Shown here one piece after another: positions 14,095-34,187 of a stretch of DNA of 57,668 nucleotides (positions are counted from its first letter, which is position 1; each line of letters starts with the position of its first letter). Source of the DNA: a virus; the IMG/VR virus record IMGVR_UViG_3300035703_000107, positions 1 to 57,668 of that record, one strand, 5' to 3'. The notes under the pieces are model-generated. The model was not told where the DNA came from. It saw only the letters and a list, made by a program, of their open reading frames with translations, and did not search any database. Both the position numbers and the translations under genes were made by a program.

Positions 14095-14170
14095 TGGTTG
14101 CGGGAACAGGACTCGAACCTGTGGCCTGTGGATTATGAGTCCACCGCTCTTCCAACTGAGCTATCCCGCG
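14095..14170 (-). tRNA. tRNA-Met (anticodon CAT), C1:A72 initiator-like
   Basis: A full 76-nt cloverleaf reads leftward and encodes its own CCA. The D stem is GCTC/GAGC, the anticodon stem GTGGA/TCCAC with loop CTCATAA (anticodon CAT), the T stem ACAGG/CCTGT with TTCGAGT loop, and the acceptor strand 3' part TCCCGCA-A-CCA. Numbered from the conserved T8-A9, base 1 is C and base 72 is A, giving the mismatch that marks initiator tRNAs. The three G:C pairs of initiator anticodon stems are absent. It could be elongator Met, initiator-like Met or Ile2 (if lysidinylated). Confidence 0.93.
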
Positions 14171-14507: not shown

Positions 14508-14828
14508 AAAAAAGGGTCTCGTGTGTGAGGTGGTAATACAGTGGTTCCAGAACCCCGCACCGATGCACTTCGTGGTCCCGTGCCACCAGGGTTGACAGCT
14601 CTGTTCTGCAGCATCTGAGTCCTGCAACTGATTCAGAATCAGTAGGACTCGTAGTAAATTCAATGACTTAACACCTGAGTGTGCTAATTCTGAGCACATG
14701 ATCTGGTGTTTTCACCTCAGATTGGGTATCGGCTCGTCCCTTTTTTCCTACGGAAAGGGACTGCGCCTGCTTTCTTGCTCATATCTCTTTCATTCATTTA
14801 ACTTTTTACCAACTAACTGGAGTCAACT
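14508..14828 (+). other. 321-nt non-coding region rich in hairpins
   Basis: No convincing gene is seen. It contains GGTTCCAGAACC (14543-14554), a long imperfect inverted repeat at 14617-14650 (GAGTCCT/AGGACTC plus CTGATT/AATCAG), a nested hairpin at 14670-14710 (AACACC/GGTGTT around TGTGCT/AGCACA), and GTCCC-TTTCC-UAC-GGAAA-GGGAC at 14736-14761. The last part, from 14770, is pyrimidine-rich and leads to GGAG and the ATG at 14829. It could be a long 5' leader or an RNA in its own right. Confidence 0.5.
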
Positions 14829-15023: not shown

Positions 15024-15031
15024 TCCGTGTC

Positions 15032-15061
15032 CTGCCCCTTAACCTTCTTCGAAGGGGGCAG
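15032..15061 (+). promoter_or_regulatory. Leader stem-loop upstream of the 15110 gene
   Basis: CTGCCCC pairs with GGGGCAG, with an inner CCTTC/GAAGG stem and TTC loop. It is followed by a pyrimidine-rich stretch containing TTCATTCTTTCAAC and then AGGAG and the ATG at 15110. The same arrangement precedes the genes at 14829 and 18009. It may be a stabilised 5' end, a processing site or a weak terminator of the preceding gene. Confidence 0.5.
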
Positions 15062-15109
15062 TCCACTCTTCATTCTTTCAACTGTTGTCTATTCATTAGG
15101 AGATTTACT

Positions 15110-15445
15110 ATGTCCACTATCACTGCTAAACCTGCTTCACCTGCCCAACTCAAGCGTTTGGAATACGCTGTCCAATACGGCTTGCTTCCAGAGGGCTTTA
15201 CGATGCCTACAGATTCTTACGCTGCTTCGGGCATCATCGCTAACCTCCCCGCTTCCAAGCGTGACAAGCAAGCCTTGATCGACGCTGGTGGCTTGGTCAA
15301 GCCGAAGATGACTTCCCGTGAAGTCGAGCGTGCTCAGATCGTCATCACTGCTGTGAATGCGATCGATGCAGCTGGTGTCAAGAACGCTAAGGTTCTCGAG
15401 GCTATCCAGAACCTACGCAAAGAGTTCTTCCGTAAGCAAGCGTAG
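15110..15445 (+). CDS. Unknown helical protein
   Basis: The 111-residue product begins MSTITAKPASPAQLKRLEYA and has LPASKRDKQALIDAGGLVKP and a helical C-terminal half with AIDAAGVKNAKVLEAIQNLR and a basic end KEFFRKQA. It is not recognised. The basic, Ala-rich helices suggest nucleic-acid or protein binding. AGGAG precedes the ATG by about 9 nt, and the gene sits between two strong hairpins, suggesting a separately controlled transcript segment. Confidence 0.65.
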   Translation: MSTITAKPASPAQLKRLEYAVQYGLLPEGFTMPTDSYAASGIIANLPASKRDKQALIDAGGLVKPKMTSREVERAQIVITAVNAIDAAGVKNAKVLEAIQNLRKEFFRKQA

Positions 15446-15556: not shown

Positions 15557-15790
15557 ATGACTAATCAAGAGATTGCCAAGATGATCCGCGGTCGCTTCTT
15601 CGGTGACAGGGGCACAGATCTAGAAGCTGCTTTGCAGTACGCCCTTGATCTTATCTCCCACCTGGAGCCCGAAGGTGTTGTTAAGGGGTTGACTGGCATG
15701 TACGTGGTGCTCAACACGATTGCCAACATCCTTGAAGCAGATCCCCGCGATGAGGCGAGCGGGAAAGTTACAGGAGCGAAGCCTCAATAG
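15557..15790 (+). CDS. Unknown small protein upstream of the structured RNA
   Basis: The 77-residue product begins MTNQEIAKMIRGRFFGDRGT and contains LEAALQYALDLISHLEPEGV and GMYVVLNTIANILEADPRDE, helical throughout. It is not recognised. AAAGGAT precedes the ATG. Its last 13 codons fall inside the first hairpin of the structured RNA candidate (15752-15785), so coding and RNA structure overlap. It may be the mRNA from which that RNA is cut. Confidence 0.65.
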   Translation: MTNQEIAKMIRGRFFGDRGTDLEAALQYALDLISHLEPEGVVKGLTGMYVVLNTIANILEADPRDEASGKVTGAKPQ

Positions 15791-16100
15791 CGGGTTGCTC
15801 TCCCCGCATCCACAAGCGAGCGAATGGACGGTTACCAGCAGTCGAAGCGAGATCCTCACGTGTGAGGTCGAGCGGAGCGGAGTGGTAACTGGTAGTGAGT
15901 CGAGCGTCCTGCTCACTCTATATCCCTGCGTCAGGGAACCGACTGAGATGTGGAAAGCGGATGGCTTTTAGCCAGCAGCGAAACATCTCAGAAGGTGCAG
16001 TGTTCCAAATCGGGGAACGACCAGCGGGTCAGTTCGCTGGGTGAAGCAAATCCTCACGAGTGAGGTGAAGCGGAACCCAGTAGCGAACTGAATGGCTGGT
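15752..16100 (+). ncRNA. Large multi-domain structured RNA candidate
   Basis: About 350 nt are almost fully occupied by nested stems. Three modules share a pattern: an outer stem, an internal loop strand like RAAGCRRAT, an inner hairpin, then a strand like AGCGRA and the outer stem closing. Module A has 8-bp GGTTACCA/TGGTAACT (15830-15890); B has a perfect 9-bp CTGAGATGT/ACATCTCAG (15943-15991); C has CAGTTCGC/GCGAACTG and TGGGT/ACCCA (16030-16090), enclosed by ACCAGC/GCTGGT (16020-16100). A and C have nearly identical inner hairpins, CCTCA-CGWG-TGAGG. Further hairpins lie at 15752-15785, 15790-15807, 15895-15917, 15923-15935 and 16002-16018. No known RNA family was recognised. Confidence 0.7.
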
Positions 16101-16143
16101 GGTGACCTATCAATGTAAGTAGCAACTAACCAAAGGAGGATGT

Positions 16144-16320
16144 ATGTCTACTAAGTTAATCATTGAAGTAACGGATTCTAAAGATCCATCAGGTGTTAGC
16201 GATCTCCTGCAGAAGGCTCTTGACTATATCGGTCAGGGTGCAAGAAGCGGGAACATTACATTACCAACTCAGACCATCTATTGGTCTTTAACTACGAAGG
16301 AGAAATCAAATGCTGTCTAA
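16144..16320 (+). CDS. Unknown 58-residue protein
   Basis: The product begins MSTKLIIEVTDSKDPSGVSD and has LLQKALDYIGQGARSGNITL then a C-terminal QTIYWSLTTKEK. A strong AAAGGAGGA ribosome-binding site lies 7 nt before the ATG. It is the first gene after the structured RNA candidate and overlaps the next gene by 11 bp. Alternating beta and alpha segments suggest a small folded domain. It is not recognised. Confidence 0.7.
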   Translation: MSTKLIIEVTDSKDPSGVSDLLQKALDYIGQGARSGNITLPTQTIYWSLTTKEKSNAV

Positions 16321-16911: not shown

Positions 16912-17175
16912 ATGTCTTCTATAAGACCTGTTGTATCTATCCTCGATCCAAACTTTCGGTATATCCCTGCGTCGCAGACGGATGTATCGAAAACTTTCGA
17001 GCGTATTCGCATGGAGATGGGTATCAGTAACCCTGTTCCTCGCCATGTTCCTGCAATGTTTAGCAGTGTTGCCGATGTATCTGATGAGGATCTCGCTTTC
17101 GCTGCAGCCCAGCTCCGTCAGGACTATGAGGAGTACGGCGACCCTTGGTATCCCCGTAAGAAAGGAGGCATCTAA
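16912..17175 (+). CDS. Unknown 87-residue protein
   Basis: The product begins MSSIRPVVSILDPNFRYIPA and contains TDVSKTFERIRMEMGISNPV, DVSDEDLAFAAAQLRQDYEE and a basic terminal PWYPRKKGGI. AAGGAG lies 10 nt upstream. The stop shares its last base with the next start (TAATG). The sequence is not recognised; it has a helical, charged profile typical of early phage proteins that bind host factors. Confidence 0.6.
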   Translation: MSSIRPVVSILDPNFRYIPASQTDVSKTFERIRMEMGISNPVPRHVPAMFSSVADVSDEDLAFAAAQLRQDYEEYGDPWYPRKKGGI

Positions 17176-17839: not shown

Positions 17840-18008
17840 CAGTGTGCCTGCTATATGTGCACAGTTAACCTCAGTTTATTAGTTAGTGTAACACAAGTGT
17901 TCGCTACTAATACACATCGCTTGTTATTCAACCATCGTCGCCCGCCCTTCTTCCCTTCGGGAAGGGCGTTCGACTTCTCTTTCTTTCAACCATTACTAAG
18001 GAGCAACT
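17835..18008 (+). other. Intergenic region with two stem-loops before the amidoligase gene
   Basis: GTTAAC repeats at 17835-17840 and 17864-17869 enclose TGTGC/GCACA, a terminator-like hairpin without a T tract. ACACaaGTGT at about 17891-17900 is a small dyad followed by CTACTAATA. At 17943-17968 CGCCC and CTTCCC/GGGAAG form a hairpin with a TTC apex, then a pyrimidine-rich TCTCTTTCTTTCAACC leads to AAGGAG and the ATG at 18009. No small gene is seen. Confidence 0.55.
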
Positions 18009-19502: not shown

Positions 19503-19615
19503 TTCGCATCACAACCAGCAACAAAGTTTGGTCTGACCTAACTGAGCTCGAGGCAAGCACCTTGATCTCGTGTCTCGTGGTCAACAATATTCATTTCATT
19601 GCAGTATATCAATAG
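19499..19615 (+). CDS. 38-residue peptide coupled to the amidoligase
   Basis: The ATG overlaps the amidoligase stop (ATGA). The product begins MIRITTSNKVWSDLTELEAS and ends with hydrophobic NNIHFIAVYQ. Its stop is 10 bp before the next gene's start. Coupling and position between two amide-chemistry genes support it being real. It contains one Lys, several Asn, one Gln at the C terminus, and Glu/Asp residues that an amidoligase could use. A substrate or small regulatory subunit is inference. It could also be a spacer frame with no function. Confidence 0.5.
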   Translation: MIRITTSNKVWSDLTELEASTLISCLVVNNIHFIAVYQ

Positions 19616-19625
19616 GAGAAATACT

Positions 19626-20690
19626 ATGTGCATTCTGATTCATCACCCTGCGGGTTCGGAGCTGACCGACGATCACTTCGCGGACTTCTACGACAAGAAC
19701 CCCGATGGCTTTGGCGCCATCATCAACACTGGCCGCAAGGTCGACGTGATCAAGCGTGTCGGTAGCCTGCGCGAGATCCAGCAGCTGTATCACAAGTTCG
19801 TCAAGGGTCACGACGCTGTGATCCACATGCGTTGGCGCACCCACGGTGACGTTGACCTGGCCAACTGCCATCCATATGAGGTGGTTCCTGGTCTATGGAT
19901 GTCGCACAACGGTGTCCTGTCTACGGGCAACTCCGCGGATACCACCAAGTCGGACACCTGGCATTACATCAAGGATTACCTGCAGCCCTTGCTTGCCCGT
20001 GATCCCGAGCTGATCCATGAGCCTGCCTTTCAGACTCTGATCGAGCGGCATATCGGATACAGCAACAAGTTTGGTTTCATGTCATCCGATGGTCGGTCTG
20101 TGATCATCAACCGTGACGCTGGCCTCGAGCATGATGGCATCTGGTATTCCAATACCTATGCTTGGTCGCCTACCAAGTTTGGCTACAAGTATCCTGGTGC
20201 TAGCACGACTGGCTACCACTATGGCTCGTCGCCTACCTGGGCTGCGTGGAATTCGATGGACAACACGGCTCAGCGCCAGCTCGCATGGGGTCAAGATCCC
20301 GTGGGAAAAACGGTGTCCAAGCGTGGGAAGAAGGCGAAGAAGAAGACAGTCGCCAAGAAGAAAGCAAATCTCTCTGCTCCGCTTGGACGACTAGCTACTG
20401 ATGGCTTGGCTCGCATCATCCGTAAGTTGTGGAACGAGATGATGAGCGATGACTACAACGGTGTGCTTCGCTGGGTTGAAGGCAACCCAATGCAGGCGAT
20501 GCACTTCATCAAGGAGATCTTCCCGACCTATTCGGATCAAGAGATCTCTGACATGGTGAACATGGATCCCGCTGCTGCAACTGAAGTGATCTATGACGCA
20601 TGGGATGTAGCCGAGCCTGACTTGCTAGAACTAGCGGGCATCCCTCTGTACCAAGATGCTTATGTGGAGGAGGATGCAAATGCTATTTGA
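19626..20690 (+). CDS. Class II glutamine amidotransferase-like Ntn hydrolase
   Basis: The ATG at 19626 is chosen because it places Cys at position 2 (MCILIHHPAG), the nucleophile of class II glutamine amidotransferases after Met removal, and has AGGAG 7 nt upstream. The 354-residue product then has NPDGFGA (29-35), IHMRWRTHG, CHPYEV, and MSHNGVL, matching the glutamine-binding R-x-x-(T/S)-H-G and N-G motifs. Residues about 235-255 are a Lys-rich linker (KRGKKAKKKTVAKKK) and the remainder is a helical, acidic C-terminal domain. It should release ammonia from glutamine, plausibly for the adjacent amidoligase. No synthase domain is fused to it. Confidence 0.88.
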   Translation: MCILIHHPAGSELTDDHFADFYDKNPDGFGAIINTGRKVDVIKRVGSLREIQQLYHKFVKGHDAVIHMRWRTHGDVDLANCHPYEVVPGLWMSHNGVLSTGNSADTTKSDTWHYIKDYLQPLLARDPELIHEPAFQTLIERHIGYSNKFGFMSSDGRSVIINRDAGLEHDGIWYSNTYAWSPTKFGYKYPGASTTGYHYGSSPTWAAWNSMDNTAQRQLAWGQDPVGKTVSKRGKKAKKKTVAKKKANLSAPLGRLATDGLARIIRKLWNEMMSDDYNGVLRWVEGNPMQAMHFIKEIFPTYSDQEISDMVNMDPAAATEVIYDAWDVAEPDLLELAGIPLYQDAYVEEDANAI

Positions 20691-26593: not shown

Positions 26594-26748
26594 AACCTAT
26601 ACGTATGAATTGATCTGAATGAATTGAACCTATAAGTATTAATTGAATATATAACTACGTTCACCCTAGATCCGAACGTACCTACCCCATCCTCCATTCA
26701 AGTAGGTTCGTTCAACTAGGCTCGTTCACCCTGAGTCCATAAGTACCC
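26594..26748. repeat. Iterated short repeats in the control region (operator or origin)
   Basis: Two 20-bp copies match at 18 of 20 positions: 26594-26613 (AACCTATACGTATGAATTGA) and 26627-26646. A second pair is CGTTCACCCT followed by similar sequence at 26658-26683 and 26723-26748. All four contain a core resembling YMKAWAMGTAY (TATACGTAT, TATAAGTAT, GAACGTACC, ATAAGTACC). AGGTTCGTTCAAC and AGGCTCGTTCACC at 26703-26730 repeat in turn. The tract is non-coding, AT-rich and near the repressor and primase genes. Iterons of an origin or multiple repressor operators are both plausible. Confidence 0.6.
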
Positions 26749-26912
26749 GACAGACGTTCGTGCACAAGGCTCTGTCTTCCCCACCTCTGCTCCTCTACTG
26801 CACTCTTCCCGTGGTAGGAGCCACTTCTCTTCTGACGCCACCGTTGTTATCCCCGTCCGTCAGGAGTTCTAGTTTAGTACTACTAATATTTATTTGCAAG
26901 ACGTGAAAGTAA
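26749..26912. other. Non-coding stretch between repeats and repressor promoter
   Basis: No gene is supported. It has a pyrimidine-rich segment (26776-26815) and an AT-rich end containing TACTACTAATATTTATT (about 26879-26895). The latter precedes the repressor promoter and shares CTACTAATA with the region upstream of the ERF gene and with 17905-17920. Confidence 0.4.
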
Positions 26913-32918: not shown

Positions 32919-33989
32919 ATGAATCTCTACAGACGGGGTGATGTGTGGTGGGGTCGTTGGTCGGCTAACGGCCGTCAGGTGCGGATGTCTTCGAACACCA
33001 GTGACGAGCGGTTGGCTAAGCAATACCTTGCTCAGAAGTACAGCGAGTCTTTTCGTGAGGTCAAGCTGGGTGAGAAGCCCCGCAGAACTTGGGAAGAGTG
33101 CACGCAGCGGTACCTTGAGAAGCATCGTGACCTGAAGACTTTCGAGAAGTACGAGTATCAGTCTGCATGGTGGACGACGCAGTTCAAGCAGAAGGGCATC
33201 ACGTACATCGATCAGCTGGATCCTGAGGTAGTCGAGAAGATCTGCCTCGAGGAGTTGGCAAGACCGAAGAAGCGTGGTGGTGGTAAGCGGACTCCCGCGG
33301 ATGTGAATCGAAAGATTGCCTATCTGCGTGCAGTTGTGAACGCAGTCTATCGGACGTATCGGTGGGCTGATGGGGTGCCACCCCTGTTTGCAATGCTGCC
33401 TGGTGAGATCGAGCGTGATAAGGCGCTGGAACCCACCGAGGTACTGAGGCTAGCTCGAGCGTTGCCCGAGCCCTACGGGACGATGGCGAGGTTTGCGGTG
33501 GCAACAGGACTGCGGCGCATGAACGTTCTGCGACTGCGCTGGGAGTACGTGGATCTGGGTGCTCGGATGGTTCGCCTTCCGCATCAGATCATGAAGAACG
33601 GTCAGGAGCTGAGGCTACCCCTCAACAGTCTGGCAATTGAAATACTTCGTGGTCAGATGGGTAAGTCGAATGAGTGGGTGTTTGTGAAGAAGGATGGCAA
33701 CCCACCAGGCGAGATACCTTCCAAGGTTTGGACTGCCGCAACAAAGAAGGCAGGGTTGGAAGGGGTACGCTGGCACGATCTGAGGCACTCGTGGGCAACC
33801 ATCCTGGGGGAGAGTGGTATCCCTGAGCAGGAGATCCAAAGGCTGGGCGGATGGAAGGATGCGAGGATGGTAAAGCGGTACTCCAACCTCTCGGTCAGCC
33901 ACCTGTCCAAGGCAGCAGAGGTAGTGTCTGGAGCGTTTAGCACAGATTTAGCACAGTGCGATTTAGACGAACTCCAGAAAGCAGCGTAA
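32919..33989 (+). CDS. int: Tyrosine site-specific integrase
   Basis: The product has 356 residues. The N-terminal part (1-55) has the short beta-sheet arm-binding domain (MNLYRRGDVWWGRWSANGRQ); residues about 57-150 are the core-binding domain; 165-325 are the catalytic domain with R199 (TGLRRMNVLRLRW), K227 in a beta-hairpin (IMKNGQELRLPL), H286-x-x-R289 (WHDLRH), W312 in place of the second His, and the nucleophile Y321 (KRYSN). It catalyses recombination between attP, just downstream, and a bacterial tRNA-Met gene. Its C-terminal codons contain two attP arm repeats. Confidence 0.96.
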   Translation: MNLYRRGDVWWGRWSANGRQVRMSSNTSDERLAKQYLAQKYSESFREVKLGEKPRRTWEECTQRYLEKHRDLKTFEKYEYQSAWWTTQFKQKGITYIDQLDPEVVEKICLEELARPKKRGGGKRTPADVNRKIAYLRAVVNAVYRTYRWADGVPPLFAMLPGEIERDKALEPTEVLRLARALPEPYGTMARFAVATGLRRMNVLRLRWEYVDLGARMVRLPHQIMKNGQELRLPLNSLAIEILRGQMGKSNEWVFVKKDGNPPGEIPSKVWTAATKKAGLEGVRWHDLRHSWATILGESGIPEQEIQRLGGWKDARMVKRYSNLSVSHLSKAAEVVSGAFSTDLAQCDLDELQKAA

Positions 33990-34187
33990 GTACTTGGTTT
34001 GTTGGTGGGCCCAGTTGGATTCGAACCAACGACCAAGGGATTATGAGTTTGTTACTGATAATCCAATAGTAGGGCTGATTGCTTCATAACTGCTTGTATC
34101 GTAATTTTTATCGGTCGGGGACACGCAAACCTACCGAGCAGTGTGAAGCAGTGGATGGTGGTGTGTGCTAGCACAGTTTTAGCACAG
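33936..34187. other. Phage attachment site attP with two pairs of arm repeats
   Basis: TTTAGCACAG occurs at 33936-33945 and 33947-33956, and in a related pair at 34169-34176 (TAGCACAG) and 34178-34187 (TTTAGCACAG). In both pairs the repeats are 11 bp apart and in the same direction. They flank the tRNA-like core at 34003-34047. This is the pattern of arm-type integrase sites. The left pair lies inside the integrase gene end. Confidence 0.8.
34003..34047 (-). other. attP core identical in form to the 3' half of a tRNA-Met gene
   Basis: Reading leftward, this stretch gives an anticodon loop CTCATAA (anticodon CAT), half of its stem, a variable loop, a perfect T arm (GTTGG-TTCGAAT-CCAAC), a TGGGCCC acceptor strand, A and CCA. 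There is no 5' half, so it is not a tRNA gene. It matches what a phage carries to restore a tRNA-Met gene after integration. Confidence 0.88.

Follow-up and report, generated by a model that had tools for sequence, protein, structure and literature searches.

Positions 15743-16104 of the window (the whole 57,668-nt stretch of DNA analysed here, a virus record of IMG/VR) specify, on the + strand, a genuine structured RNA. It is a previously undescribed, modular and elaborately folded RNA that is carried by few uncultured phages and conserved within a narrow clade of temperate podovirus-like phages, in which it measures ~200-410 nt (~362 nt in the window). Large structured phage RNAs are few and mostly unexplained, and this one provides a concrete case of a large RNA grown by duplicating one block. 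What the data establish is the RNA and its architecture rather than its function.

Relatives were fetched via a small upstream gene, P0001 (15110-15445), and the sample consists of eight records (the window and seven IMG/VR contigs: L001-L004 and L031-L033) with seven distinct sequences. The features of the RNA and its immediate surroundings are as follows (the covariance models R1 and R2 are described below).

15110-15445, +: gene of the P0001 family, lying directly upstream in all eight records and encoding a basic, helical protein of 111 aa
15535-15543, +: conserved motif TTTCCGTGC
15557-15790, +: 77-aa open reading frame (ORF), its 3' end overlapping P1
15743-16104, +: whole structured RNA (fold z; homologues L001, L002, L003, L004 in a short form, L031, L032, L033)
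15744-15794, +: P1, CCCGC-GA-TGAGGC / GCCTCA-ATA-GCGGG (minimum-free-energy helix, compensatory changes)
15797-15821, +: P2 hairpin GCTC...GAGC, then GAA (GCTC/GAGC also in L031-L033)
15830-15890, +: module A, or P3 (six-sequence covariation, models R1 and R2)
15830-15837 and 15883-15890, +: module A outer stem, GGTTACCA / TGGTAACT
15894-15917, +: P4 hairpin AGTGAG...CTCACT (consensus fold)
15924-15936, +: P5 hairpin CCCTG/CAGGG (consensus fold)
15938-15996, +: module B, ACC-GA-CTGAGATGT / ACATCTCAG-AA-GGT (covarying pairs)
15943-15951 and 15983-15991, +: module B outer stem, CTGAGATGT / ACATCTCAG
16002-16018, +: possible hairpin GTTCC...GGAAC (from sequence; window lineage only, not conserved in L001)
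16021-16099, +: module C, which repeats the module A block (module A models, direct repeat)
16030-16037 and 16083-16090, +: module C outer stem, CAGTTCGC / GCGAACTG
16144-16320, +: next gene (58 aa), its Shine-Dalgarno sequence ~30 nt past the RNA

The folding energy of the region is -157 to -159 kcal/mol, whereas dinucleotide shuffles average about -128 kcal/mol (z -5.2; 0 of 100 shuffles as good). An earlier note on this DNA had proposed a large modular RNA here and had named comparison with shuffled sequence as a check, and the stems of modules A, B and C are all present where it had placed them; its 5' boundary, 15752, has to be moved to ~15743. The opposite (-) strand reaches z -4.9; of the two strands, + is lower in energy for every one of the seven sequences compared and lower in z for six. 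One homologue, L033, folds weakly when taken alone (z -1.6). Fold energy alone is unconvincing for some homologues, and the main evidence is covariation.

The whole RNA is present in L001, L002 and L003 at ~80% identity. A related RNA occupies the same place in L031, L032 and L033, whose P0001 protein is only ~50% identical; nhmmer with the window sequence alone did not detect it. The remaining contig, L004 (P0001 77% identical), carries the short form. For module A, 93.9% of cells are paired across six divergent sequences, four pairs have changed on both sides, the covariation score is reached by none of 500 shuffles, and pairing is lost once the partner is slid by 1-3 columns. The full-length consensus of L031-L033 comprises 106 pairs, and at 19 of these both sides have changed, against a mean of 7.4 in shuffles (0/500 reaching it); its structure was derived from that same alignment, so the slid control is biased toward structure. 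Eleven pairs have changed on both sides in the consensus of the window, L001 and L002, with a total covariation term that is slightly unfavourable (+0.36). The alignment behind it shifts the 3' strand of P1 by one column, which is why P1 was compared by eye: its stem reads CCGC/GCGG in L001, CCAC/GTGG in L032 and L033, and TTAC/GTAA in L004, and pair 4-73 covaries in the L031-L033 alignment. Covariation in homologues, which the earlier note had named as a check, is thus present.

That the region is chance structure or coding sequence, across which small ORFs do run, is next to negligible as an explanation: it is ruled out by the covariation, measured against both shuffles and slid partners, and by non-circular model matches (below), and the indels among homologues are not multiples of three. 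The RNA had been described as lying between two small genes, a placement that needs correction in that the ORF at 15557-15790 runs with its 3' end into the 5' helix (15744-15794). No homologue of this ORF is found in the relatives, and it may not be a gene.

The evidence for internal duplication comes from two covariance models of module A, each searched against 1.01 Mb and giving E-values that are rough owing to short calibration. Model R1, built from all six sequences, has the window's module C as its best non-training match (17.2 bits, E 0.31). Model R2, trained only on the window, L001 and L004, reports the window's module C at 28.2 bits (E 1.8e-4), followed by L033 (E 0.0074), L032 (E 0.0095) and module C of L001 (E 0.035); the remaining matches, from E 6 upward, are chance. 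Because module C is matched by a model trained without it, A and C are two copies of a single block, and the R2 matches to L032 and L033 show homology without circularity. The two copies also form a direct repeat (32 nt, 81%) and share the inner hairpin CCTCA-CGWG-TGAGG, as had been pointed out. The idea of a repeated building block with kept pairing is thereby borne out for A and C, although a claim of three copies of one internal-loop motif goes too far: module B is reported by neither model. Module B is structured and covaries (U-A to C-G and C-G to U-A in the consensus of the window, L001 and L002), and in L031-L033 the sequence of its stem is replaced while pairing is kept; its status as a third copy is unproven. 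P1 might be akin to module B, as each combines a GA/RAA internal loop with an adjoining CTGAG/TGAGG stem.

P1, P2 and module A make up a 5' unit, to which most members add a second part ending in module C; L004 consists of this one unit alone (~200 nt). AGCGRA, a hexamer rich in purines, is present eight times in the RNA against 0.5 expected, in keeping with the loop strands that had been described as shared among modules. The RAAGCRRAT/AGCGRA strands are nevertheless a feature of the window lineage: the same modules in L031-L033 have other loops, so that what is conserved is the stems and the layout, not one loop sequence.

At the gathering threshold no Rfam family matches the RNA in the window, L001, L004 or L031-L033, and for the window a search at E up to 10 also left it unmatched, the sole match in the stretch being weak, unrelated and downstream; to this extent the element is undescribed, as had been supposed. 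The RNA has no blastn match among phage and plasmid records. An exact motif scan gave no matches, and two gapped structural patterns returned the known members and others judged by eye to be chance, in which model R1 has no match. Since the pattern searches add no new members, the RNA family seems restricted, within IMG/VR, to this clade. Scans of bacterial genomes yielded no usable prophage relatives.

The phage encodes a terminase, a head-tail adaptor, an internal virion protein, a primase/helicase, a 3027-aa protein with an LPD38 domain, an HTH/S24-type repressor, an ERF recombinase and an integrase, a set from terminase to integrase that makes it podovirus-like and temperate. Beside the integrase gene lies a 32-nt tRNA-like fragment (34017-34048), 75% like positions 14109-14140 of the phage's tRNA-Met and possibly an attachment site in a tRNA gene; short direct repeats of the type TAGCACAG-NTTT-AGCACAG (33938-33956 and 34169-34187) lie near the end of and after the integrase gene. 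The late genes and the primase operon are on the - strand, and the RNA is on the + strand, close to where a rightward accessory cluster begins. Further along this cluster, an amidoligase-like gene (PF12224, 18009-19502) adjoins a gene (19599-20690) whose sequence suggests a class II glutamine amidotransferase, and both are kept through the clade. A further recurring design, in which a GC-rich hairpin has a small internal loop close to the base and is followed by a pyrimidine-rich tail, stands shortly before start codons (window ~14720-14770, 15029-15075 and 17935-17990).

We place first, tentatively, the reading of the RNA as a cis-acting element of an operon head, acting on transcription or on the transcript. 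Transcription of the rightward cluster would yield the RNA as its leader or first noncoding cistron, and the RNA's target would be either the transcribing complex or the very transcript that carries it, possibly by processive antitermination as with HK022 put or by mRNA protection or processing; its repeated purine-rich internal loops would be offered to a protein. Such action would explain the fixed place after P0001, the closeness of a ribosome site and the indifference to the next gene. What puts this reading first is that the RNA keeps its place at the head of the cluster, that ribosome sites lie nearby (30-40 nt past the RNA in five of the eight records: the window, L001-L003 and L004) and that RF02932 stands at the primase operon (see below). 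Also counted in its favour are the change of next gene between lineages and the other element that fills the slot in more distant clade members (both below). Against it, classical terminators for it to overcome are few in the scanned window stretch, and the terminator-like hairpin with a T-rich tail that follows the RNA in L031-L033 fits a stand-alone RNA equally well.

About equally likely, indeed, is that the RNA is a stand-alone noncoding RNA acting in trans, with its own start after the motif ATCKTTCCGTG and its own terminator, which would bind a host or phage protein or self-assemble as large ornate phage RNAs do. Its size and ornate fold, the lack of conservation in the next gene and the L031-L033 hairpin agree with this, as does the ATCKTTCCGTG or TTTCCGTGC motif directly 5' of P1 in L004 and L031-L033. 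In the window and L001-L003, however, a small ORF enters the RNA and the stretch up to the next ribosome site shows no terminator, no GOLLD, ROOL or OLE model matches, and the motif is only a putative promoter; in the clade it also precedes protein-coding genes, and a sigma-70 scan gave no promoter at it. As ATCKTTCCGTG(C), often after a small hairpin, the motif stands immediately ahead of genes or of the RNA in the window, L001, L004, L031-L033, L041, L079, L084 and others, and looks like a candidate promoter or processing site of a novel type.

The gene directly upstream of the RNA in every homologue encodes a small, basic, helical protein, so the RNA might instead be the binding site of this P0001-family protein, in autoregulation or a phage ribonucleoprotein. 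We consider this unlikely, because P0001 also occurs in clade members without the large RNA, and its predicted fold (AlphaFold2 pLDDT 87) had no match in the PDB and hence gave no relative with RNA-binding activity. Much less probable still is a riboswitch or translational leader specific to the next gene, which the Shine-Dalgarno sequence ~30 nt downstream in the window, L001-L003 and L004 would suit. The gene 3' of the RNA differs between the window, L001, L004 and L031-L033, which argues against gene-specific control; in L031-L033 a hairpin and ~90 nt intervene before it, and the two lineages differ in the loops, where a ligand would usually bind.

Three other candidates were rejected: a CsrA sponge of the CsrB/RsmZ type (GGA 10 times against 9.1 expected), a phi29-type packaging RNA (no Rfam match, a terminase of a different type), and an antisense role of module A toward 17085-17105, where the best pairing of 18/21 (17/21 in L001) is probably chance, one of six shuffled windows reaching 17.

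More distant clade members carry a different element in the RNA's slot after the P0001-family gene: two tandem hairpins (~85 nt) with the internal loop GGTCG/GTAAATCC (L010, L015, L016, L021, L022, L023, L026, L042, L048, L051, L156 and L161). In L010, L015, L021, L026, L042, L048, L051, L156 and L161 the loop is conserved while the stems vary yet stay paired. The two-hairpin pattern matches 14 viral contigs, and all those inspected belong to the same clade. That this element functionally replaces the large RNA is a conjecture. With one- and two-unit versions occurring naturally and a shorter element in the sister clade's slot, small constructs would suffice to probe how the RNA is built up and what it does.

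Among known systems, HEARO, the omega RNA of IsrB, is likewise a structured RNA of 300-400 nt; it is not supported here, with no Rfam match and no HNH or RuvC nuclease among the neighbouring genes scanned. GOLLD and ROOL frequently, though not obligatorily, lie near tRNA islands; the phage here has a single tRNA-Met (14095-14170, opposite strand), ~1.6 kb from the RNA, and no island. They are nearest in style, being phage-encoded, large, elaborate and modular RNAs of unknown function (PMC12286853). A further mark of GOLLD and ROOL is a multimeric cage made of RNA alone. Many GOLLD RNAs exceed 800 nt, against ~200-410 nt here, and the Rfam models of GOLLD, ROOL and OLE have no match in the window, L001, L004 or L031-L033 at gathering, nor in the window at E up to 10. 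The kinship with GOLLD and ROOL that the earlier note had entertained is therefore not supported by the tests made.

RF02932 (Betaproteobacteria-1 RNA) is a structured RNA heading the other early operon of these phages. On the primase strand, it lies just upstream of the primase gene in the window (26745-26867, -), L171, L172, L173 and L174, and between primase and a divergent S24-type repressor in the window, L172, L173 and L174, which suggests a phage early-operon leader RNA, possibly put-like. It differs in having 123 nt and three hairpins and in its strand and operon, and neither module A model matches it.

The put RNA of HK022 suppresses termination in cis via the zinc-binding domain of the RNA polymerase beta' subunit. 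Antitermination in HK022 is RNA-only, with put copies heading two early operons (PMC9378689). What the two share is their noncoding nature, a place close to the head of an early operon of a phage, and a two-unit design; put is a two-hairpin RNA of ~70 nt with its own sequence, whereas the RNA here is multi-helical and, at 362 nt, 3-5 times longer, which tells against a put-like form of the cis reading. In the HK022 genome the loop motif of the two-hairpin element, the only feature sought there, was not found. It is rather doubtful that an RNA built from a duplicated block seizes RNA polymerase at an operon head, and that sister phages swapped in an unrelated two-hairpin RNA, which would make a second, independent kind of put-like RNA. 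By analogy, the RNA described here may work like HK022 put, which would then serve as a precedent for its mechanism and not as a relative.
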